A stretch of DNA of 64,000 nt, taken from assembly GCA_028690665.1 (NCBI GenBank), contig JAQVAV010000014.1:1-64000 (forward strand), given 5' to 3'. A program made the translations under genes and the position numbers. Position 1 is the first letter of the stretch. Every line of letters begins with the position of its first letter. Of this stretch, positions 50-13,471 are shown piece after piece. The notes under the pieces were generated by a model, which had not been told where the DNA came from, did no database searches, and saw only the letters and a program-made list of their open reading frames with translations. This stretch comes from Paludibacter sp. GTDB taxonomy: Bacteria > Bacteroidota > Bacteroidia > Bacteroidales > Paludibacteraceae.

Positions 50-2689
50 ATGAACGAAACAATAAATAATGCTGAAGATATTTATGATGTAAAAACATCT
101 CCGACAAATTTGTCAAAGAATAATGATGATATAGGTAATTTCTTTGTGAGATTTCTCAAGGTATTAACTATTCACAAATGGTTGTTTTTGACGATTTTTC
201 TTATTGTTATCCTTTTGGTGATGTTGTATGCCCTGCGTCAACCCGTTTCATATCAATCTAATTATGAGGTTTTTTATAATGAAAATATTCGAGAATTTGT
301 AGATGATAATACAAATAGTCCTGTTGTAAAATCTGATTTCGATAAAAATTACTGGTTGAGAGCTATGCAGTCGGATGAAGTAATGGAGTTGACAAAGAAA
401 AATTCGGGATTACCCTATTCGGCAAGTCAACTAAACAGGATGATTCTTACGGGAGTTGTTGATAAACGGAAGGAAGATCGTATTCCTGTTTTTTTAGTCC
501 AGATAAATAGTCATTATAAAGAACACATTCCAATTTTGATCAGGGCCTATATTAATGCTTTGAATGATTTGTTATATCAGAAGCAAATCAGAAACTCACA
601 AAACTTAATAGCTTATTTAACAGGTCAGATTAATCAGAATAATGCAAAACTCATTCAGTTGAATGTTCAGATTGCAGATGATGGAGGGGGAACTGCTAAT
701 AATGAGATTGTTGATTTCGATAAGATAAAAACATCTCTTGATGATTTTCGGAATCAACTTTTAAATGCCCGTGTAAATTTATCATCAATAATATCAGCCA
801 GAAAAAGAACTGAAACTGAGTTAGCAGGTATTGATGGTACCGTAGTTAATGAATCAGCATTTTCAGAACCTTTGAAAGTTCAATTAATGAATCTGGAGGT
901 TGACTTAGCTCGGGCATTGACTAAAAATAAAGAGGATCATCCTGCCGTAAAGCAAATCCGGGCGAATATAAAACAAATCAGTGATATGCTTCGGGACAGT
1001 TTGGAACAACGTCTTGAAATTAAAAGCTTAATCCAAAACCCGATTAAAAGCCAATTGATGAGTAAATTGTTGGATTTACAAATTCAGGAAGTTTCTGAAG
1101 ATACAAGAGTGCGTTCTCTTGAACAGGTAATCGGAGAATTGGAAAAGAAGACTTTGCCGACTTCAGTAAATCAGGATCAGCAGCAACAATTGCGGAACAG
1201 AGATATGTTAACTCTTACTATCAAGGGATTAAATGATAAACTGATAGAGGCACAGTCTACCTCTCATGGTAGTTTAAGCCGCTTTGCATACATAGATGAT
1301 GCGAGCTCCATTAATTTGGCGAATAAAGGTATATTGTTTTATATAATATTGGCAATTCTTGTTGGTTTTTTGATTGCATCTTTGATTGTTTTTATTTACG
1401 ACTTGTTGGATGATCGTATTATGTTGGTTGAAGACTATGAACATTTTTATAGTTATCCATTAATTGGAATTATTAAACATTATAAAGATGAAGAGGATAA
1501 TATTGATGCCGGATCGGATTACAGGCAGCGGAGTTTTGGAGATATAGGCGGTCTAATCGTAAATCTGAGGCAGGTAATGAAGCATAACCATATTAAAACT
1601 CTGGTTATTTCAAGTCCAGATAGAATGGAGGGTAAATCACTTGTTAGCCTAAAATTAGCCGCAGCATTAGCTATGAAAAAACAGCGGGTTTTGTTGATTG
1701 ATATGGATTTCTATTCTCCTAAACTTACAAAAAAAATCTATCCGGACTCTCAAATAGGCTTGTCAAATTATATTATGGATGAATGTGGTATTGAAGATAT
1801 TATCTTATCTACTGATATCCCTGATTTGAATTTTGTTGCAGCGGGTAATGCAGAAGGTCAGAAAGATCTTTTTTATAATGATAGCAGATTAGCGACATTT
1901 ATTGAAAAAGCAAAGGATAATTATGATGTTGTTATGTTTGACACTCCTGCGGCAATGTATATTCCGGATATAGTTGAATTCTTTGATTTGATGGATAGCA
2001 TTATTGTGATTGCCAGGCTAAGGCGTACTACACGTAAACTGCTAGATCGACTTTTTAAAACTGTTTCAGATTTTAAATCAAAATATATAGGTGTTATTAT
2101 TAATGATTTAAGAGCTGATGGCAGAGCTTATTATGATAATTATCAATATGGATATTCTTATAATTATAGTGATTATAAAGATAATTCAACAGACGGAAAA
2201 GGAACTAAAAAACGAATTCCGAAAAAATCTGTATGGTTTTCCGCCATTGTCATTTTAGTATTGGGAGGCTTAGTTTATTATTATGGATTTAATAATTCCG
2301 GATTTAAATTATTTACTTCTTTACGACAAGCAAAAGATTCTATTCGAGTTGAAAAAACAGATATGAGAGATAAGGAAACTTTTACTCAAGATACTTTATC
2401 CGATTCTGTAAATATAGCTACTTCATCTGTATCTCATAAAGATATGGATTCTGTAGAAATTCATAAAGATAGTCGCCTCACCAATATCGCTCTTCAGAAA
2501 TATGGAAATAAATGTTTTTGGGTCTATATTTATCTTGCAAATAAAACATCAATAAGTAATCCTAATGAACTAACTCCGGGGACAATAATTTATTTGCCAG
2601 ATCCGACTGTTTATGATATTGATGCAAATGATGTTAAATCTATTAATGCTGCTTTAGATCTTGAAAAGCAAATTATATCTGGATTATAA
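50..2689 (+). CDS. Wzc-like polysaccharide co-polymerase / BY-kinase with C-terminal TM and LysM-like domain
   Basis: Probable chain-length regulator and tyrosine autokinase of exopolysaccharide export, in the inner membrane. A Wzz-type first membrane segment lies at about residues 43-64, a long coiled-coil periplasmic part follows, and a second membrane segment is near 426-450. The kinase has a Walker A-like DRMEGKS (about 523-529), Walker A' VLLIDMDFYSP (about 547-557) and Walker B VVMFDTPA (about 627-634). A cluster of eight tyrosines (about 691-713) matches the autophosphorylation tail of the family. Unusually the protein goes on: a third hydrophobic segment at about 728-747, then a LysM-like domain at about 803-860 (NIALQKYGN, IYLANK, NELTPGTIIYLP). 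That tail should be periplasmic. It precedes an SLBB-LCP and a Wza-like gene on the same strand. The kinase call is firm; the LysM tail is my reading from pattern. Confidence 0.9.
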   Translation: MNETINNAEDIYDVKTSPTNLSKNNDDIGNFFVRFLKVLTIHKWLFLTIFLIVILLVMLYALRQPVSYQSNYEVFYNENIREFVDDNTNSPVVKSDFDKNYWLRAMQSDEVMELTKKNSGLPYSASQLNRMILTGVVDKRKEDRIPVFLVQINSHYKEHIPILIRAYINALNDLLYQKQIRNSQNLIAYLTGQINQNNAKLIQLNVQIADDGGGTANNEIVDFDKIKTSLDDFRNQLLNARVNLSSIISARKRTETELAGIDGTVVNESAFSEPLKVQLMNLEVDLARALTKNKEDHPAVKQIRANIKQISDMLRDSLEQRLEIKSLIQNPIKSQLMSKLLDLQIQEVSEDTRVRSLEQVIGELEKKTLPTSVNQDQQQQLRNRDMLTLTIKGLNDKLIEAQSTSHGSLSRFAYIDDASSINLANKGILFYIILAILVGFLIASLIVFIYDLLDDRIMLVEDYEHFYSYPLIGIIKHYKDEEDNIDAGSDYRQRSFGDIGGLIVNLRQVMKHNHIKTLVISSPDRMEGKSLVSLKLAAALAMKKQRVLLIDMDFYSPKLTKKIYPDSQIGLSNYIMDECGIEDIILSTDIPDLNFVAAGNAEGQKDLFYNDSRLATFIEKAKDNYDVVMFDTPAAMYIPDIVEFFDLMDSIIVIARLRRTTRKLLDRLFKTVSDFKSKYIGVIINDLRADGRAYYDNYQYGYSYNYSDYKDNSTDGKGTKKRIPKKSVWFSAIVILVLGGLVYYYGFNNSGFKLFTSLRQAKDSIRVEKTDMRDKETFTQDTLSDSVNIATSSVSHKDMDSVEIHKDSRLTNIALQKYGNKCFWVYIYLANKTSISNPNELTPGTIIYLPDPTVYDIDANDVKSINAALDLEKQIISGL

Positions 2690-2709: not shown

Positions 2710-3948
2710 ATGGTGAGCAGAAAACGAAAAAGTACTCGATATTCGGATAAATTTAAAAAACGAAAAGCGCTTTTTTGGTGGGTATTAGGGGTGCTGGTCT
2801 TTTTGTTGTTAATTTTGATGTTGTGGTGGAAACTTCCGGCAAAACCTGATCGATATATAAGAGTAGGAATTTGTGGTGCAGTACGTGTGCCTGCGGTGTA
2901 CACGATGAGAGATGGGGCGGATCTAGGAATGCTGGTGAGAAGAGCAAATGGTTTTAGAGCAAATGCAGATATATTTAAGGTAAATCTCGAACGTTTATTG
3001 GAAAATGATACTATTTACCATATCCCAGCGCGAGGAAATGGAGGTAATGATGTGGCATGGTCTCTCAGACTTAACCGGGAGGTGAAGAATTCAATCGACA
3101 AATCTTATAGTGATATAACCCAGAAAGTGAGTCGGGAATTCGATAATAAAGAAATTCGAAAATATAGTGTTTTGTATGTAGGTTTACCCGCAGTGTATGT
3201 GTTAATTAATTATTATCCGGATTTTAATAGAATAAATTTTATTCATCTTCCACATTCTACCGTGTTCCTTAATAATGAATATCGTTTGATAGATCTTTTT
3301 TTTACATTAGATATTTATCCAACAATGAGAATTGTTGAACATACTCTGAAACAAAAAATAGATTATTATCTGATTCAGGATCGCGGTATGTTTGTCGATT
3401 TAATTGACAGGCTTGGGGGAGTGGAACTTAATTTAGATGATGCATACGCACAAGCTTATGATTTACAGCCAGGACGACAACTTGTGGATGGATTTCATGC
3501 GTGGGAATATATTCGATTTATTGACTGGAGAAATATTGGTATTAAAGTTCGGAGTGAGAAGAAAAGGGATCTTATCCGGAGCGATAATTTTGAAGCTAAT
3601 CCACGAACATGGGAACGAATTTACGAAATCAGAAATCAAAGGCAACGTTATGTCCTTGAAGGCATGAGACATTCGTTCAAAGTTCTTTCAAAGAATCAAC
3701 AGATGGATGTAATCAATAACTTTAAAAAAGTTTTTAATACTGATATGGATGTTGACTTTTTAATGAAACTTTATACAGATATTTTGTCGACAAAGGATTT
3801 TTCTTTTGGGAATATTCCTGGGTATTATGGCTCATCTGGCAATAAACTATATTTTTATCCTGACCTTCCAAATTTTGAAATGTTGCAGGAACAAGAAATA
3901 AGAGAATGGTTGGAAAAAAAATATGGAAAAACTCAAACAGTATATTGA
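2710..3948 (+). CDS. SLBB domain + LytR-CpsA-Psr (LCP)-like membrane protein
   Basis: Single-pass membrane protein with a basic N terminus, a membrane segment at about residues 19-43 and an extracytoplasmic remainder. Residues 50-107 look like an SLBB/ComEA-type beta-grasp domain (GAVRVPAVYTM, NLERLLENDTIYHIP). Residues about 150-345 resemble an LCP domain: FVDLIDRLGGVELNL and PGRQLVDGFHAWEYIRF match the family pattern. LCP enzymes transfer lipid-linked glycopolymers to cell-wall acceptors. The usual PRDT strand end reads PHST here, so a normally conserved Arg seems absent and enzymatic activity is doubtful. It starts 20 bp after the kinase gene and is followed by a Wza-like gene, so a role in anchoring or assembling the exported polysaccharide is inferred. 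Confidence 0.75.
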   Translation: MVSRKRKSTRYSDKFKKRKALFWWVLGVLVFLLLILMLWWKLPAKPDRYIRVGICGAVRVPAVYTMRDGADLGMLVRRANGFRANADIFKVNLERLLENDTIYHIPARGNGGNDVAWSLRLNREVKNSIDKSYSDITQKVSREFDNKEIRKYSVLYVGLPAVYVLINYYPDFNRINFIHLPHSTVFLNNEYRLIDLFFTLDIYPTMRIVEHTLKQKIDYYLIQDRGMFVDLIDRLGGVELNLDDAYAQAYDLQPGRQLVDGFHAWEYIRFIDWRNIGIKVRSEKKRDLIRSDNFEANPRTWERIYEIRNQRQRYVLEGMRHSFKVLSKNQQMDVINNFKKVFNTDMDVDFLMKLYTDILSTKDFSFGNIPGYYGSSGNKLYFYPDLPNFEMLQEQEIREWLEKKYGKTQTVY

Positions 3949-4021: not shown

Positions 4022-4672
4022 ATGAATAATACATTTGTTGCAAGAGGATTATTTTTAATGGCATTTTTGTTCATGCTTTTTATAAATAGCAATGCTCAAA
4101 TAGACAGTACTTATATTATAAAAAGAGGAGATGTTCTACAGATAGATGTTATGGAACATCCTGAATTTTCATTAGTGGCAGTACCTGTTATGCCAGATGG
4201 TTTTGTTCAGTTTCCTGGCTTGGGAAGTATCAGAGCAGCCGGAATGACAATTAAAGAGTTTACAACCGTTATGCAAAAAAATGTTGAGAAATATGTAGTG
4301 AATCCTGTTTTAACTGTATTTGTTAAATATATGCCATCTCAGGTTATGAATGTTGTCGGCTATGTAAATACTCCAGGTCAGATACAAATATTTGAACCTA
4401 CAGATTTAATAACAGCTTTAAGCAAAGCCGGAGGTATTAAAGATATTCGTAGATGTAAATGGGTGACAATTGTAAGGCAAGACCAGAGTTTTGAAAAATA
4501 TTCTGTGAAGAAAATTTTTAGTAAAAACTTTGACCGGGCTGAAATACCTGTTCTAAACGTTGGAGATACTGTTTATGTGATTGAACCTAACGGTAAGTTT
4601 AACTGGTCTTTATTGACATTTATAACACAATTAGCTTATATTTCTGTCTTAATTTGGATTAATCTTAGATAA
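4022..4672 (+). CDS. Wza-like polysaccharide export protein (Poly_export + SLBB)
   Basis: Signal peptide ending around INSNAQ, then a polysaccharide biosynthesis/export domain beginning YIIKRGDVLQIDV and an SLBB domain (VVGYVNTPGQIQIFEPTDL, ALSKAGGI). Family members form the outer-membrane/periplasmic export channel for capsular or exopolysaccharide. The protein is 216 residues, shorter than E. coli Wza, and ends in a hydrophobic stretch (about 198-213) that probably anchors it, a common Bacteroidota arrangement. Third gene of the kinase-LCP-export set; the 73-bp gap shows no terminator that I can see. Confidence 0.85.
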   Translation: MNNTFVARGLFLMAFLFMLFINSNAQIDSTYIIKRGDVLQIDVMEHPEFSLVAVPVMPDGFVQFPGLGSIRAAGMTIKEFTTVMQKNVEKYVVNPVLTVFVKYMPSQVMNVVGYVNTPGQIQIFEPTDLITALSKAGGIKDIRRCKWVTIVRQDQSFEKYSVKKIFSKNFDRAEIPVLNVGDTVYVIEPNGKFNWSLLTFITQLAYISVLIWINLR

Positions 4673-4951: not shown

Positions 4952-7825
4952 ATGAAGGATATGAGAATTTTTACCATGCTAATCAAAAAATTACCAACGG
5001 TAATGTTTTTGATGTTTTTGTTTGGAAGTTTTGTGGATATACAGGCCCAAACCGCAATCACTGTTGTGGGGACACCAGTAACACAAGATTTTGATGGCTT
5101 GGCATCGTCCGGTAGCGGAAATACATGGACTGATAACAGTACATTGCCTGGTTGGTATGCTTATTCCGGAGGGGTTGTTACTGCTTACTCTGCAGCAGAT
5201 GGATCTGCAAGTGCTACTGGTCTTTACTCCTTTGGAGTCACTGGAAGTTCTGATCGGGCTTTAGGTTTTGTGCCTGCAGTCGCTAGTTATTTAGGATGGC
5301 TAATTGTAAATAACACAACGCAGACTATAGAGACCTTAGGAGTTACGTGGTATGGAGAACAGTGGTCGGCGACTAGTAGTATCTCAGCACAGACTATTCA
5401 GTTTCACTACAAAAAAAATCCTACATCCTTGACCGATGCTGATTATACTCAACGTTTGCCCAGCTTTTCTACTTTAGTAAAAGGTAGTGGCGCTTTAAAT
5501 GGAAATAATTATACTACAAAAATTACTTCATATCTCGAGAATGTTAATTTAGCTCCAGGAGAGACTGTAATGCTAAGGTGGTATGATGCAAGCGATGCTT
5601 TAAATATGTCTGTTGCAATTGATAATATAGAGGTTAATGTGGCTGTCTCTCAGACAATAACGTTCTCTGCTATTCCAAATAAAGTTTATGGTGCGGCTTC
5701 TTTTGATTTAGATGCAACTGCTTCAAGTGGGTTACCTGTTACTTATTCAAGTAGTAATACCGATGTGGCAACAATAAGTGGAAATACAGTTACAATTGTT
5801 GGTGCCGGTCAGGTAACTATAACAGCAGCTCAGGAGGGGAATACTTCATATAAACCGGCTAGTTCTGTTGAACGGGTATTGAATGTATATCCAGATGTGC
5901 CTGAATTAGAACCTGCCACGGGTATTTCGCAAAGTGGTTTTACCGCCAATTGGCATGCATACGATGGATTGAATAGTGATCCTTCCGGATCTTCTTATGT
6001 ATATTATACTTTGTTTTATTCAAAAGACCCCACATTTGCGACATATAATGTTGAGCAGTTAACGGATAATTATTTGCAAGTCTCCGGATTAGAAAGTAAT
6101 TCTGTTTATTATTACAGATTATATGCTTCTCATACGGAAGTTGGAGATGGCGGATATACAGATGCTGCTATCGTTACAACAGGTACTGATTATATCTCGA
6201 CTGCAAATGGTACGTGGGATCAATCTTATTGGGATGTTGAACAAAGCCCAGGAGCTGTTGCGAACAAAGTAACCGTTTTGCATGATGATGAATTAAATGT
6301 AAACGGAACCCGGGGTAATGTTGTTGTCAATACTCTGGAATTAGGTCCGGGGGCCTCTTTGGATGTTAAACAACAGATTACTGTTGCCGGAACGTTAATT
6401 ATAAATGTTGATAAAGATGATGATGCAGGACAATTATTGAATAATTCAAATATTATAATGGGAACGGGATCAGAAATTATAATTAAACGAACTTTCGATA
6501 ATAGTCGGTGGCATTTTGTAGGCTTTCCTTTTGACGTAGATCCGGCCAATATATTCCTATCCGGCACAACAACTCAGGCAACTTGGGGAGACGCCTCTAC
6601 AGTTGCTGTTCCGTATAAAGATTTTTACGTTAGACAATATAATGGCTATACAAGAGATTTAGAGGGAACGGCTAATTATACAGAATCAGGACTTCATTGG
6701 GAAGATGTTTCTCCTCATGGTTTTGTTGCCAATAAAGGTTATATTTTAGCGGTACCAACTTCTAGTGATATAACGCTTGACTTTGTAACTAAAGCTGCGG
6801 ATGCAAGTGGTATTTTTGGCAGTTTGAAGACAATATCTGTGAATCAATATAAAATAAATGCAGATCCAGTACACTGGAGCTGGAATTTGGTGACACAACC
6901 TTTTGCGTCTTCTTATGATTTATTGTATACTAATACACCATCTTATTTCCATATATTTAATTATATTAAACTACAGAACAGAGATTCAGACAATTATGAT
7001 GATTATTCTGAAAGATTAGTAGATAAATATGTTGTGTATATGCCTGGAGATCAAAATATTGTTGCACCTTATCTCTCGTTTTTTATACAAGCTCCTGGTA
7101 CAACATTAAGCTTCAATTCAGGAGGGAATAGGGCATTGGCTCCATCTGTGGATAATTCTTCCACCGATTTTGATGAGATAAATTTGAAACTGGAAGATTT
7201 AAATACTCATATTTCGGATAATACGAGAGTCCGCTTACAGGAGGGAGCTTCTGATAGCTATATTCTTGGTACAGAAGCTGTAAAAATGTTTAGCGAAAGT
7301 AGTCTTGTGCCTCAGATTTATACTAAATTATCAAACGGTTATCCAATGTCTGTAAATATGTTGCCAGCAACCACCACCACTATAGCAATACCAACTAAGA
7401 TTGGTGTTAAAGGCGAATATTCTATTTCCTTGTCAACTTTGGATAAAGTGGAAAATTATTCTCAGGTTTTACTTGTTGACAATCAGACTGCTACTCAAAC
7501 AGATCTTTTGATGGAAGATTATACCTTTGATGTTTCGACAACAGGTACAGCGAATAGATTCAAAGTGATCCTTGTTCCCAATGTAACAACTAATTTAGGA
7601 AATGTTGAATCTGGAGTAAATGTAATATCTGCTAATAACTCTCTTCAATTTACAGGTTTGAATTCTACGGCTACGGTTAGTATATATGATTTGACAGGTA
7701 AAAAAATTGAGCAAATTCAGAATGTGATTTCGCAACAAATGTATCCATTTGCAAAAAAAGGGTTATATTTGTTCGAGATTAATGAAAATAATCAGGTTTA
7801 TAAGATTAAGGCTATTGTAAAATAA
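4952..7825 (+). CDS. Secreted surface protein with Ig-like and FN3-like domains and a T9SS C-terminal sorting domain
   Basis: Signal peptide of about 33 residues ending IQAQ, then a lectin/jelly-roll-like N-terminal region (starts about TQDFDGLASS), a bacterial Ig-like domain near residues 228-310 (TYSSSNTDVATISGN), an FN3-like stretch near 315-410 (SGLESNSVYYYRLYASH), a long beta-rich region, and a final domain of about 75 residues ending FEINENNQVYKIKAIVK. That tail has the type A T9SS sorting pattern (TVSIYDLTGKKI, GLYLFEI). T9SS cargo crosses the outer membrane and is usually attached to A-LPS or released. The stop lies 6 bp before the start of the PVDGG miniprotein, so the two are almost certainly co-transcribed. 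Substrate unknown; likely adhesin or matrix protein. Confidence 0.85.
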   Translation: MKDMRIFTMLIKKLPTVMFLMFLFGSFVDIQAQTAITVVGTPVTQDFDGLASSGSGNTWTDNSTLPGWYAYSGGVVTAYSAADGSASATGLYSFGVTGSSDRALGFVPAVASYLGWLIVNNTTQTIETLGVTWYGEQWSATSSISAQTIQFHYKKNPTSLTDADYTQRLPSFSTLVKGSGALNGNNYTTKITSYLENVNLAPGETVMLRWYDASDALNMSVAIDNIEVNVAVSQTITFSAIPNKVYGAASFDLDATASSGLPVTYSSSNTDVATISGNTVTIVGAGQVTITAAQEGNTSYKPASSVERVLNVYPDVPELEPATGISQSGFTANWHAYDGLNSDPSGSSYVYYTLFYSKDPTFATYNVEQLTDNYLQVSGLESNSVYYYRLYASHTEVGDGGYTDAAIVTTGTDYISTANGTWDQSYWDVEQSPGAVANKVTVLHDDELNVNGTRGNVVVNTLELGPGASLDVKQQITVAGTLIINVDKDDDAGQLLNNSNIIMGTGSEIIIKRTFDNSRWHFVGFPFDVDPANIFLSGTTTQATWGDASTVAVPYKDFYVRQYNGYTRDLEGTANYTESGLHWEDVSPHGFVANKGYILAVPTSSDITLDFVTKAADASGIFGSLKTISVNQYKINADPVHWSWNLVTQPFASSYDLLYTNTPSYFHIFNYIKLQNRDSDNYDDYSERLVDKYVVYMPGDQNIVAPYLSFFIQAPGTTLSFNSGGNRALAPSVDNSSTDFDEINLKLEDLNTHISDNTRVRLQEGASDSYILGTEAVKMFSESSLVPQIYTKLSNGYPMSVNMLPATTTTIAIPTKIGVKGEYSISLSTLDKVENYSQVLLVDNQTATQTDLLMEDYTFDVSTTGTANRFKVILVPNVTTNLGNVESGVNVISANNSLQFTGLNSTATVSIYDLTGKKIEQIQNVISQQMYPFAKKGLYLFEINENNQVYKIKAIVK

Positions 7826-7831
7826 TATATT

Positions 7832-8020
7832 ATGAAAACTAAATATATATATGTATTGATTTCTTTGTTGGTTATTTCAACAACTGTTTTTGCGGATGGT
7901 CTTCCTACTCAACCGGGTGATCCCGGAATGTCTACACCTGTAGATGGAGGAATTTTAATGGCTATCTTGGGGCTTGGTGGTTTAGCTGCAATGTTATTCA
8001 AAAAGAAAAAGGATAAATAA
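7832..8020 (+). CDS. 62-aa PVDGG C-terminal sorting-signal miniprotein (candidate exosortase substrate)
   Basis: Complete tiny protein: signal peptide (about 1-21, ending TTVFA), about 19 exposed residues rich in Pro/Gly/Asp, a TPVDGG motif, one hydrophobic helix (about 42-55) and the basic tail FKKKKDK. Short motif + helix + basic tail is the tripartite architecture of exosortase/sortase recognition signals, and PxDGG tails of this sort occur in Bacteroidota. Here the whole mature protein is little more than the signal. It sits 6 bp after the T9SS cargo gene and 88 bp before an exosortase-family gene. It may be the substrate, or a small anchor or accessory peptide; this is inference from architecture and position. 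Confidence 0.75.
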   Translation: MKTKYIYVLISLLVISTTVFADGLPTQPGDPGMSTPVDGGILMAILGLGGLAAMLFKKKKDK

Positions 8021-8094: not shown

Positions 8095-8107
8095 TTTATT
8101 GTTCTGT

Positions 8108-9187
8108 ATGAATAATACTATAATCCAGAAATTTGTTGTTGGAAAGTTTAAGTCTGACTATATAAAGCTGTTGGCCTTATTGATTATTAGTATAGGTCTG
8201 CTTGTTATTTGGCCTTATGTGGAGCATTTAAACATATATCGATTCATATCGCATGCATTGGCTGGGTTGGGTGGATTATTAGCAGAAGGAATTGGATGCC
8301 TTACAGGGAAGTCATTAGTATATCAAGGTAAATACGAAGTTCTGAATTTCGGCAATGAACAGATGAAAATTCTTATGCCTGTAAATTCATATTCATATTA
8401 TACAATATTACTTTTATTTTATTTGTTAGTTCCTTCAAAAAAGTGGCAGGGAGTTTTTTTTCAAATTATTTTTACAGCGATCTTTATTTCATTTAGAGCT
8501 GCTGTTATTGCGTTTATTAAACTGCCTTTGGCAGGAACAGTCCATTCTATATTGTTGAGTTGGCTTGAACCTCTGATATATTTTCCAATGTTGGTGAATG
8601 TTATGTTTGTGGTTAAAAATAATAAATTGCTCTTAACCGCTTACCTTTATTTGACTGAATTATTCCGGAATAAGATAAACGTATCTTTAGCCGGAATAGT
8701 GTTGCTTCTTATTGTTATACCTCCTCTGCCGAGAGTGATTTTCTATTATATCGACATAAGGATATTGGATGAAATTACCTCGTTCATTCTTAATGGAGCT
8801 ATGTGGCTATTGGGCGTGTTTAATTATCATGCAGTTGTGTCAGATAAATTCATTCTCTTGGGGAGATATTGGTTGTCATTAGAGCAACCTTGTTTGGGAT
8901 TGGGAGTTGCTACTATTGTAATTTTACTTATTCTGATTACAAAAAGCAAGCTTAAAAATAAACTGATATTTGTTCCGTTTTTTTTATTGTTTTTTAGTTT
9001 TATGAATTCAGTAAGACTGGCTTTTACGTTAGTATATATTAAAAATACGTATGAAATATCCGGTTTGGATAAGCCAATGATTCATAATACAATTACATAT
9101 TTTATGTATTTGGTTGCTTTCGGATTGTTTCTGCTCTACTATTTCTGGTTTCAGGATATAGATTTTTCTTGTAAGAAGATGAAATAA
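8108..9187 (+). CDS. Exosortase/archaeosortase-family protein with apparent internal duplication
   Basis: Polytopic membrane protein of 359 aa (ATG at 8108 preferred over an upstream TTG). The second half carries the exosortase triad in its usual membrane context: Cys262 (EQPCLGLG), Arg303 (NSVRLAFT) and His326 (PMIHNTITYF). Exosortases are transpeptidase-like enzymes that process C-terminal sorting signals, commonly beside exopolysaccharide genes, as here. The first half looks like a degenerate copy of the same fold: Arg130 (FISFRAAVIAF) and His146 (GTVHSILLSW) are retained, but the position expected for Cys (about residues 90-93, MPVNSYSYY) has none. So one catalytic and one pseudo-catalytic half are inferred. 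Its likely partner is the PVDGG miniprotein just upstream. Confidence 0.8.
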   Translation: MNNTIIQKFVVGKFKSDYIKLLALLIISIGLLVIWPYVEHLNIYRFISHALAGLGGLLAEGIGCLTGKSLVYQGKYEVLNFGNEQMKILMPVNSYSYYTILLLFYLLVPSKKWQGVFFQIIFTAIFISFRAAVIAFIKLPLAGTVHSILLSWLEPLIYFPMLVNVMFVVKNNKLLLTAYLYLTELFRNKINVSLAGIVLLLIVIPPLPRVIFYYIDIRILDEITSFILNGAMWLLGVFNYHAVVSDKFILLGRYWLSLEQPCLGLGVATIVILLILITKSKLKNKLIFVPFFLLFFSFMNSVRLAFTLVYIKNTYEISGLDKPMIHNTITYFMYLVAFGLFLLYYFWFQDIDFSCKKMK

Positions 9188-11581: not shown

Positions 11582-13471
11582 ATGAGTCAGTTAATCTCCA
11601 CATTAGGAAAATCAGGCATAACTCTGCCTGCAGAACTGTTGGAACTATTAAACACATGTAAGAGTTACACTGTTTATGACACTGTAGATCAGCTTGCTGT
11701 AGCAGCGCTCGGAGGTGAAGGTAACAACCAGTTTGAAGTGAAATACGATATACCGGGCAAAGGTGAAGTAACCGAAGCTATTGTACATCGTGTAAATAAT
11801 GGTATATCTGCTAATTATGTAGAACCATATATGCGTCGTCGCGATCCGGACACAATGGTGATTGCTGATAAGTTTCCAACAGATAAAGAAACTTTCAGTG
11901 AAAGATTTGGTTATGAATTTGACAGTTTGAAGGCTGAAACTTTTGAATGTCTGAAAAAACAGGATCTTGCTGTTTTTCTCTATTTTGCAGGCCGTGAGGG
12001 AATTGGGGTAGGGGGTATTGCTGTTTGCCCAGCAAATGCCGGTTTTTTTGCATTGGGACTTTCTATGCTGCAGATTATGGTTTCTACAAAGAAAATTCCA
12101 GTAGATTTCAAAATTGAATCTGTTATTTATGTTGCTCCAACTTTTCGCCATACTCATTTTAACGGGAAACAAATTGTAGTTCATAACAGAACTACTGATC
12201 GTCATGATATTTTCTCATACAATCTTTATCCCGGACCAAGTGCAAAAAAAGGTCTCTATGGTGCTTTGTTGACTAAAGGGGAACGTGAAGGCTGGATAAC
12301 AGCACATTGTTCAACAGTGCAGGCGATCAGTCCTTATGATAACATTACCACATTTATGCACGAAGGAGCAAGCGGTGGAGGAAAAAGTGAAATGCATCAA
12401 CATATTTTAAGGGAAGCCAATGGGCAGGTTGTAATTGGTGTTAATACGGTTACTCAGGAGCGCCGTTTGATTAATTTACCTTTGTCTTGCTCATTTAATC
12501 CGGTTACGGATGATATGGCTTTGTGCCATCCTTCTATCCAGAATGGTAATGGAAAGTTGCGTGTTTTGGATGCTGAAAATTCGTGGTTTATCCGTGTAGA
12601 TAGTGTGACCGAGTACGGTGATGATCCAGCTCTGGAAAAAATTACGATTAATCCAGCAAAGCCTCTGCTGTTTCTTAATCTGAAATCAACTCCGGATGCA
12701 ACGGTGTTGATTTGGGATCACATAGAAGATGCTCCGGGTAAAAGATGTCCGAATCCACGTGTAATTCTTCCACGTGAAATTATGCCGAATGTTATTGGTA
12801 CTTCTGTCTCTGTTGATATTCGTAGCTTTGGAGTGAGGACTCCACCGTCTTCAGCTCAAGATCCCAATTACGGAATTATAGGAATGTTCCACTTGCTTCC
12901 GCCAGCATTGGCTTGGTTGTGGCGTCTTGTTGCTCCTCGTGGGCATGCTAACCCGAGTATTGTAGGTGGAACAGGTATGGGATCTGAAGGGGTTGGATCG
13001 TATTGGCCATTTGCTACAGGAAAGATGGTTCATCATGCCAATATGTTGTTGGAACAAATCATGAATACCCCGAACACCAATTATACATTGGTTCCTAATC
13101 AATATATAGGAGTCTGGAAAGTTGGATTTAAGCCCCAGCTTATGATGCGTGAATACCTTACGCGTCGTGGAAATGCTCGCTTACGTAAAGACCAGTATCA
13201 GGATTCCCGTTGTCCGCTTTTAGGCTACGAACTGAACTATTTGACTATTGAAGGAGCTAAAATTCCTTCTCGTTTCTTAAAGGTTTACAAGCAGGATGAA
13301 GTTGGTTTTGCCGGATACGATGCCGGAGCCGATAAACTCTACAATTTTTTTAAGGACGAATTGCAAAAATACCTTACAGCGGATTTATTGCCAAAAGGAC
13401 GGGAGATTATAGACGCTTGTCTGAACGGGGCTACCGTTGAAGATTACGCAGCTTTGATACCTGTAGAATAG
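11582..13471 (+). CDS. DUF4914-family protein, P-loop/PEPCK-like
   Basis: A 629-aa cytoplasmic protein without signal peptide. I recognise it as the DUF4914 family, conserved in Bacteroidota and some Firmicutes. A glycine-rich nucleotide-binding loop GASGGGKSEMHQ sits near residues 262-273, and the general layout (APTFRHTHFNG, GGTGMGSEGVGSYWPF) resembles PEP carboxykinase-like kinases. No enzymatic activity is established that I know of. The upstream XRE-cupin gene suggests metabolite-controlled expression. The 160-bp leader contains no clear -7 box. Family call fairly sure, function unknown. Confidence 0.75.
   Translation: MSQLISTLGKSGITLPAELLELLNTCKSYTVYDTVDQLAVAALGGEGNNQFEVKYDIPGKGEVTEAIVHRVNNGISANYVEPYMRRRDPDTMVIADKFPTDKETFSERFGYEFDSLKAETFECLKKQDLAVFLYFAGREGIGVGGIAVCPANAGFFALGLSMLQIMVSTKKIPVDFKIESVIYVAPTFRHTHFNGKQIVVHNRTTDRHDIFSYNLYPGPSAKKGLYGALLTKGEREGWITAHCSTVQAISPYDNITTFMHEGASGGGKSEMHQHILREANGQVVIGVNTVTQERRLINLPLSCSFNPVTDDMALCHPSIQNGNGKLRVLDAENSWFIRVDSVTEYGDDPALEKITINPAKPLLFLNLKSTPDATVLIWDHIEDAPGKRCPNPRVILPREIMPNVIGTSVSVDIRSFGVRTPPSSAQDPNYGIIGMFHLLPPALAWLWRLVAPRGHANPSIVGGTGMGSEGVGSYWPFATGKMVHHANMLLEQIMNTPNTNYTLVPNQYIGVWKVGFKPQLMMREYLTRRGNARLRKDQYQDSRCPLLGYELNYLTIEGAKIPSRFLKVYKQDEVGFAGYDAGADKLYNFFKDELQKYLTADLLPKGREIIDACLNGATVEDYAALIPVE

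Follow-up and report, generated by a model that had tools for sequence, protein, structure and literature searches.

The stretch of Paludibacter sp. DNA analysed here (64,000 nucleotides of contig JAQVAV010000014.1, assembly GCA_028690665.1; hereafter the window) encodes a protein of 359 amino acids that, judged by sequence comparison and a predicted fold, appears to consist of two exosortase-type units, the N-terminal one lacking the cysteine, and to represent a conserved branch of a known family (Table 1). The original prediction had described a pseudo-exosortase unit placed ahead of an active-looking one, and this description held up both in profile comparison, with distant relatives included, and in the predicted fold. 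We consider it probable that the protein is a fusion of two exosortase units, each about 170 residues long, in which the C-terminal unit (C-unit) is the enzyme and the N-terminal unit (N-unit) a non-catalytic partner. The computations display the two-unit architecture of this subfamily, N-units without the cysteine in 34 of 34 proteins, an intact catalytic set in the C-units of 34 of 34, dN/dS ratios under 1 for either unit, and a link with a mini-protein gene. The two-unit exosortase is a variant within the known exosortase family, and a conserved subfamily rather than a one-off.

Table 1. Features of the two-unit exosortase gene and its upstream neighbours, in window coordinates.
Feature	Position	Strand	Residues	Basis
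Two-unit (duplicated) exosortase-superfamily protein, 359 aa	8108..9187	+		open frame; TIGR04178 above cut-off; AF2 model
N-terminal unit, degenerate exosortase unit without catalytic Cys	8117..8620	+	4-171	profile match; fold layout; merged alignment
V92 (Cys column)	8381-8383	+	92	merged alignment
R130 (Asn300 column)	8495-8497	+	130	merged alignment
Linker, with helix 173-187	8621..8686	+	172-193	DSSP of AF2 model; charged K173, R187, K189
C-terminal unit, complete exosortase	8687..9184	+	194-359	TIGR04178; PF09721; invariant C/N/R/H
C262	8891-8893	+	262
N300	9005-9007	+	300
R303	9014-9016	+	303
H326	9083-9085	+	326
Mini-protein, 62 aa: N-terminal hydrophobic stretch, short Pro/Gly-rich stretch, PVDGG (36-40), hydrophobic stretch, KKKKDK	7832..8020	+
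957-aa protein with a weak type IX secretion tail at its C-terminus, encoded immediately upstream of the mini-protein	4952..7825	+		TIGR04183, 23.8 bits (cut-off 23); PF18962, 17.5 (below cut-off 27)
Wza/EpsE-like polysaccharide export protein	4022..4672	+		PF02563, 3.6e-19
SLBB/ComEA-like plus LytR-CpsA-Psr domain protein	2710..3948	+		PF03816, 7.7e-10 (above cut-off); PF10531, 6.8e-5 (below)
Wzc-like chain-length determinant / tyrosine autokinase	50..2689	+		TIGR01007, 1.5e-26 (below cut-off); PF13614 above cut-off

The reading frame is open over its whole length, with the ATG at 8108 as start and an in-frame TTG further 5' at 8099, and Cys262, Arg303, His326, Arg130 and His146 are found at the positions first assigned to them. 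A search with the 359-aa protein returned 11 homologues, 10 of them with 334-370 amino acids and one a fragment of 270. The exosortase-like character attributed to the second half is well founded: TIGR04178 matches residues 259-348 with 37.2 bits (E 2.8e-9; cut-off 23), and the same model is matched by all 20 members of a 20-sequence alignment at E up to 1. PF09721 reached 30.8 bits (cut-off 25.7) on the C-half scanned alone, and a Pfam scan of the full-length protein did not detect this exosortase domain. In excerpts of the published work, a Cys/Arg/His triad is proposed for the exosortase family (PMC1569441), and Cys173, Arg214 and Arg253 of ArtA are reported as critical (PMC9263693). The C-units of all 34 two-unit proteins carry such a Cys-Arg-His set, residues C262, N300, R303 and H326 being invariant.

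The more specific exosortase models fit less well. Exosortase X (NF046081; cut-off 170) gave no match in the 359-aa protein at E up to 1, and the XrtY model (NF046083) scored 29.2 bits, far under its cut-off of 160, a shortfall that could point to an inactive or decaying exosortase. We regard such a decay of the whole protein as most improbable, given the invariance of the four residues just named, dN/dS values that, in four pairs of relatives, lie well under 1 for either unit, and the paired mini-protein genes in several genomes. Among 393 genomes sampled from the order, at least 69 gave a match to the 20-sequence profile. Apart from one piece of 92 amino acids, those matching open reading frames (ORFs) that were read fall into a single-length class of 178-216 and a double-length class of 336-382 amino acids, which argues that the C-half alone corresponds to a complete stand-alone exosortase; one single exosortase in the genus reaches 238 amino acids. 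The genome of the window contains one further exosortase above the TIGR04178 cut-off, a single-unit protein of 192 amino acids on another contig, beside a gene that we take, by eye, to be tsaD-like.

For the N-unit, profiles restricted to the close family were set aside because they show a similarity too weak to decide: in the 20-sequence alignment the halves match in register and weakly, with an hhalign probability of 4.8% (P 0.0084), or 7.2% (P 0.0049) in the reverse direction, and nine subgroup comparisons ranged from 14.7% (P 0.0018) at best to 0.2% (P 0.28) at worst. Self-similarity between the halves, named in the original prediction as its own test, becomes detectable in profile comparison once distant relatives are added. 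The N-halves of 34 two-unit sequences match the corresponding C-halves with a probability of 93.2% (P 3.1e-7; hhalign, default settings), and the same N-unit profile matches 40 single exosortases at 95.7% (P 8.4e-9) and singles together with C-units at 97.1% (P 7.1e-11). Left out of this alignment were the fragments P0012 (270 aa) and P0023 (296 aa) and P0024, which covers 28% of the query; L044 and L047 were dropped as redundant with P0019 (99% identical over 96%) and P0022 (same length), respectively. The halves were also said to repeat each other in the region before the motifs. They do align there, but ISHALAGLGGLL (residues 47-58) pairs with residues 219-230 in the profile alignment and not with 223-235.

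Controls were run for hydrophobic layout. For the full N-unit set, the real scores of 48.9-66.4 compare with at most 24.8 for shuffled profiles in which the hydrophobic layout was preserved (60 per target), and with at most 15.4 for reversed profiles. The 34 N-units form four groups, the first (the window's own) with 16 sequences, the second with eight, the third with six and the fourth with four (L041, L042, L045 and L048); against single exosortases their N-halves gave P values of 0.0019, 4.8e-5, 2.1e-8 and 6.1e-6 in this order. Each group, against either target, scored above all 60 layout-keeping shuffles and above the reversed profile; the closest shuffle reached 34.4 against a real score of 42.8 (fourth group), and reversed profiles of the groups stayed at or below 22.5. 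The N-halves of the window's group match those of the second group with P 5.8e-9 and 5.2e-10; between either of these groups and the two distant ones, the similarity of the N-units is only weak (P 0.0005 to 0.06).

A blind search was run over 751 unique ORFs of at least 100 amino acids, from which the 19 two-unit proteins were set aside and in which exosortases were defined by a purpose-built HMM (E<1e-5); some of the loci had been obtained with a profile containing the N-half, which introduces a mild bias. At E<1e-3 the N-half HMM picked out 43 of 94 single exosortases but none of 638 other ORFs, including none of the 84 among these that are polytopic by hydropathy; at E<0.01 it found 52 single exosortases and one other ORF. 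Window-shuffled copies of exosortases (465, of which 462 were reported) gave nothing below 0.06. Split by group, the first to fourth profiles found 0, 3, 24 and 1 single exosortases at E<1e-3 and no other ORF in each case, and all 12 matches of the second group's profile at E<0.1 are exosortases. The 16 sequences of the window's own group, taken alone, found no single exosortase at E<0.01 and separated exosortases from other ORFs at chance level (AUC 0.49; 0.515 against the polytopic ones). Since its own group fails this search, the tie of the window's N-unit to exosortases is indirect and runs via the second group and the predicted fold. Sequence and model together place the N-unit in the exosortase superfamily for the set of 34, and the window's group alone fails the sequence part.

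In searches with individual sequences, 6 of 34 N-halves match the single-exosortase HMM at E<0.01 and none of their 34 reversed copies does. When nine N-units were compared with 18,950 NCBIfam models, four matched exosortase models exclusively (E<=1), the best matches being XrtM for L044 (5.1e-5) and XrtX for L060 (6.2e-5), with L043 reaching E 0.37 only; the other five, the window's included, matched no NCBIfam model. The window's N-half gave no model at E<=1 in NCBIfam and Pfam, and the Pfam exosortase model matched none of the nine N-halves alone. The N-half of the profile also retrieves a catalytic XrtH-like single exosortase, L120, which reaches 37.7 bits with the N-half HMM and 5.7 in the reversed control; its score with the exosortase HMM is higher (58.0). 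As a caution on such values, profiles of membrane proteins can give spurious E values near 1e-3, as seen when the 34-sequence profile matched a GPCR at 0.0012.

It could be argued from the low probabilities of the close alignment (4.8-7.2%), the failure of the window's own group in the blind search and the missing Pfam match in all nine N-halves that the N-half is an unrelated membrane domain, similar through hydrophobicity alone. This appears very unlikely to us: reversed and layout-keeping shuffled profiles score below the real ones in every group, none of the 84 other polytopic ORFs passes, and the fold is repeated in the model, beta hairpin included.

The AF2 model of the 359-aa protein, computed on the 34-sequence alignment (pLDDT 87.9, pTM 0.80), displays two exosortase-type units and not a single one joined to an unrelated N-terminal domain. 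The layout of helix 42-66, strands within 71-87 and helices 92-107, 110-138 and 147-171 recurs as helix 207-237, strands within 242-257 and helices 260-277 (broken at 264), 282-318 and 322-348. The N-part opens with helix 4-38, and its strands span residues 71-73, 78-81 and 84-87; the C-part follows the linker helix (173-187) with helix 194-203, has strands 242-245, 248-251 and 254-257, divides its broken helix into 260-263 and 265-277, and closes with helix 355-358. A stand-alone exosortase of 187 amino acids (L017; pLDDT 93.3) was modelled with helices 2-33 and 39-66, strands 71-74 and 77-80, and helices 90-93, 95-107, 112-143, 145-175 and 177-186, so that the N-half tracks it nearly residue for residue in the positions of its secondary-structure elements. 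The evidence from fold and from sequence is not fully independent, because the alignment supplied to AF2 held the distant relatives. Searches by sequence yielded no solved relative and fold searches of the PDB no usable match; two matches to GPCRs were taken as chance. Lysine-rich loops lie at residues 111-112, 170-189, 279-285 and 356-359. By the positive-inside rule the linker is probably cytoplasmic, and the loops fit an arrangement in which both units would be oriented alike, their catalytic face on the outer side.

The absence of a cysteine from the first half, as proposed at the outset, is confirmed by the merged alignment, where the equivalent position is V92 in the window's protein and V, T, I, L or F in the family, with cysteine in none of 34 N-units. 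Two equivalences suggested at the same time do not stand. Arg130 had been read as the counterpart of R303; it is invariant in 16 of 16 close homologues, yet it sits in the N300 column, three residues before the R303 column, as does the arginine of every N-unit of the first group (16/16). His146 had been matched with H326, but it is absent from 5 of 16 close homologues, and in the AF2 model it lies just before helix 147-171, whereas H326 is inside helix 322-348. No residue of the N-half aligns with H326; this column is itself softly aligned, as histidine occupies it in 47 of 74 true exosortase units. The N-units lack the full catalytic set: arginine occupies the R303 column in 12 of 34, namely in 7 of 8 sequences of the second group (Lys in L058), in 5 of 6 of the third and in none of the four of the fourth.

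The N-unit of the window's group has conserved residues of its own, namely P91, Y95, R130, D/E154 and Y/F158. Among the 16 sequences P91, Y95 and R130 are invariant, and position 154 is aspartate in 15 and glutamate in the window's protein. N-units evolve faster than C-units, with a mean pairwise identity of 0.37 against 0.46 in the first group. In the four pairs for which it could be computed (a fifth was saturated), dN/dS lies at 0.19-0.32 in the N-units and at 0.06-0.17 in the C-units, dS exceeding 1 in three of the four. Such invariant residues and a dN/dS below 1 would also be expected if the N-unit were itself an enzyme or an acceptor-handling unit working with other residues, for example R130 and D/E154, in a two-step machine. 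We think this unlikely, as no nucleophile is conserved at or next to the cysteine position (V/T/I at 92, S/A at 94) and the conserved set varies by group, down to no arginine in the R303 column of L041, L042, L045 and L048.

The gene for the mini-protein ends 87 bases upstream of the two-unit exosortase gene. Its product combines the three features by which a partner was recognised, namely the motif, a membrane helix and a basic C-terminal tail; from its sequence, the N-terminal hydrophobic stretch is a probable signal peptide, and the mini-protein is a candidate for a dedicated substrate of the two-unit exosortase. It had been proposed to look for other duplicated exosortases near PxDGG-type proteins, and these were found: a mini-protein with a P-x-D-x-x motif, a hydrophobic stretch and a basic tail is encoded upstream on the same strand of 14 of 19 unique two-unit genes, and near 12 of 89 single exosortases (at least 600 bases upstream, and up to 1500, were read). 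The gap is 8-182 bases in ten cases and 782-894 in four, where one gene for a protein of 272-294 amino acids lies between. L041 and the window's genus share the motif form P[VIL]DGG; PLDS, PLDT or PLDD stands in its place in the four spaced cases. Five two-unit genes have no mini-protein in the upstream DNA read, L049 and L042 (2000 bases each), L060 (968), L045 (264) and L048 (0); two of these five are cut by contig ends. The intervening proteins of the spaced cases (L043:5434-6318, L046:5546-6391, L044:3252-4070 and L047:3204-4085) look polytopic and share a stretch resembling FWTQ/LWTQ..V.SIY; three of them were searched and gave no Pfam match at E<=0.1.

The mini-protein reached the cut-off of no NCBIfam model. 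It scored 22.3 with NF033846 (NPXTG; cut-off 23.5) and 15.0 with TIGR01167 (LPXTG; cut-off 15.9), and gave no match to PID-CTERM (NF046080; cut-off 26) at E up to 1; no further relative of it was found in its own genome at E<=10. Upstream of it, the window carries polysaccharide export genes (Table 1), and the six-gene order from the Wzc-like gene to the two-unit exosortase is repeated in L011, a contig of a metagenome-assembled genome labelled Porphyromonas cangingivalis, a label that is doubtful. A further near relative is found in L010, a record labelled Paludibacter sp. The joining of SLBB/ComEA-like and LytR-CpsA-Psr domains in one protein, encoded between the Wzc-like and Wza-like genes, has a homologue at L011:3788-5011. 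After the two-unit exosortase, both relatives encode a protein of 2118-2119 amino acids on the opposite strand (L010:3287-9646 and L011:10145-16501). At 11582-13471 the window encodes a protein of 629 amino acids that matches DUF4914 along almost its entire length (E 2.7e-288).

Among known systems, the protein resembles the exosortase/archaeosortase superfamily (TIGR04178; PF09721) in the match of its C-unit, in the Cys-Arg-His residues and in the polysaccharide export genes nearby, and differs from it by the second, Cys-less N-terminal unit, most single-domain relatives having about 165-240 amino acids. XrtX and XrtY of Bacteroidota (NF046081, NF046083) are the best-scoring specific models for two-unit proteins; these models have 168 positions, whereas the two-unit protein is twice as long. 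The XrtX/XrtY and PID-CTERM pairing (NF046080) is matched in kind by the single exosortases, of which the 12 of 89 mentioned above adjoin a P[IL]DGG mini-protein, and the mini-proteins beside the single exosortases of L014 and L028 score above the PID-CTERM cut-off. At the XrtH-like exosortase locus L120 (1492-2061 and 2150-3001; genome G462), the upstream protein ends in VPTLGEWAM followed by a membrane helix, and we take it to be IPTL-CTERM-like.

Exosortase N (TIGR04476) is likewise a long exosortase of Bacteroidota (413-442 amino acids in L082-L084), but its single exosortase match (E 2.4e-4 to 2.4e-3) falls inside residues 77-282, and behind it comes a long tail of a different kind. The idea that it might be a two-unit case already known was rejected, the N-unit profile finding no second unit in it (best i-E 0.07). 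TIGR04476 has no match in the 359-aa protein at E up to 1 and none in its genome at E<=1e-20. The eight-helix EpsH/XrtA (TIGR02602) resembles the C-unit in its catalytic part, positions 114-237 aligning with the C-units of L045 and L041, and matches of N-units to such models fall on catalytic regions (e.g., XrtM 13-140, CrtC 192-266). Since the single exosortase L017 already fills EpsH 77-236, too little sequence lies ahead for a second full unit, and the idea of classical EpsH as an ancient duplication was set aside on these model coordinates. Exosortase F of Flavobacterium johnsoniae is also a small Bacteroidota exosortase, and, according to an excerpt of the study, xrtF and its partner gene were recovered in a surface-colonisation screen (PMC10936215); its NCBIfam model (174 positions) is a single unit and is matched by 3 of 20 two-unit proteins (best E 2.7e-4). 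Our searches of the open-access PMC literature brought up no description of a duplicated exosortase, which, being open-access only, is weak evidence of absence.

In a tree of 34 C-units and 40 single exosortases, one branch splits two-unit from single proteins (98/85; 97% of 200 bootstrap trees). Within the genus, 9 of 48 genomes carry two-unit genes, at 11 loci plus one fragment at a contig edge; within the order the figure is at least 9 of 393 genomes sampled, and the window's genome is counted in both. Of 395 genomes sampled across the phylum, at least 108 match at E<=1e-6, and among the candidates scored a two-unit gene was seen only in the window's own; the counts for order and phylum are lower bounds, as at most five candidates were scored per genome. 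Two long frames were examined and rejected as two-unit proteins, that of G781 being a single exosortase with an N-terminal extension and that of G538 an exosortase behind a long N-terminal domain. The latter frame (L122:574-2034; 486 amino acids) joins an N-terminal part that resembles, by eye, a family 2 glycosyltransferase to an exosortase unit. Single-sequence scans of viral and genome collections returned no match, nor did the plasmid collection.

The original prediction spoke of a tandem duplication, and an origin by self-duplication, as opposed to fusion of two exosortases, is not proven. In a quick tree that includes the N-units, N-units and C-units each occupy one side of a branch (SH-aLRT 76 and 89) without being joined, and the best single matches of the full N-unit profile include the XrtH-like L127, L120, L137 and L124, at the same places as TIGR04177; both observations would suit a fusion of two different exosortase genes. 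A tree constrained to join N- and C-units is nevertheless not rejected (p-AU 0.642) and has a log-likelihood 8.94 above that of the free quick tree, and the long branches leave both placements unsure. We hold the fusion of two different genes to be possible but doubtful.

Excerpts of the published work propose for the family, and report from mutants for ArtA, an action via a cysteine and an arginine, with a histidine or arginine as third residue; a C-terminal signal would be cut close to the outer face, and the newly formed end would presumably be joined to another compound, which for ArtA is a lipid (PMC1569441, PMC9263693, PMC7468200). By analogy with the family, the C-unit would be the enzyme, its Cys-Arg-His residues at the periplasmic face cutting the mini-protein at the PVDGG (PxDGG) signal, and the cleaved peptide would presumably be passed to an acceptor. 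The N-unit, keeping the fold without the nucleophile, may serve as a permanent non-catalytic partner that helps to hold the mini-protein or the acceptor. Within the two-unit architecture, such a fixed docking partner is the reading we prefer, with chances that we would call about evenly balanced. After both cuts only a short Pro/Gly-rich peptide would be left of the mini-protein, about 20 residues in the window's case. More tentatively, and as a conjecture that we ourselves rate as rather unlikely to be right in full, exosortases might generally act as pairs of units, frozen here into one chain in which a dead and specialised partner positions the mini-peptide or the acceptor, and the mini-proteins might be, instead of surface proteins of the usual sort, peptide handles for attachment to an exported polysaccharide or glycolipid.

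What stands is a conserved branch of two-unit exosortases in the window's order, with candidate mini-substrate genes of its own. The gene pair, a 62-aa candidate substrate and a 359-aa enzyme, offers a compact system for biochemistry. Here a dead unit is naturally joined to a live one, which sets catalysis apart from the remaining functions of the fold, and the residues that the dead unit has kept suggest a non-catalytic role. The fixed pairing, finally, raises the question whether single exosortases dimerise.
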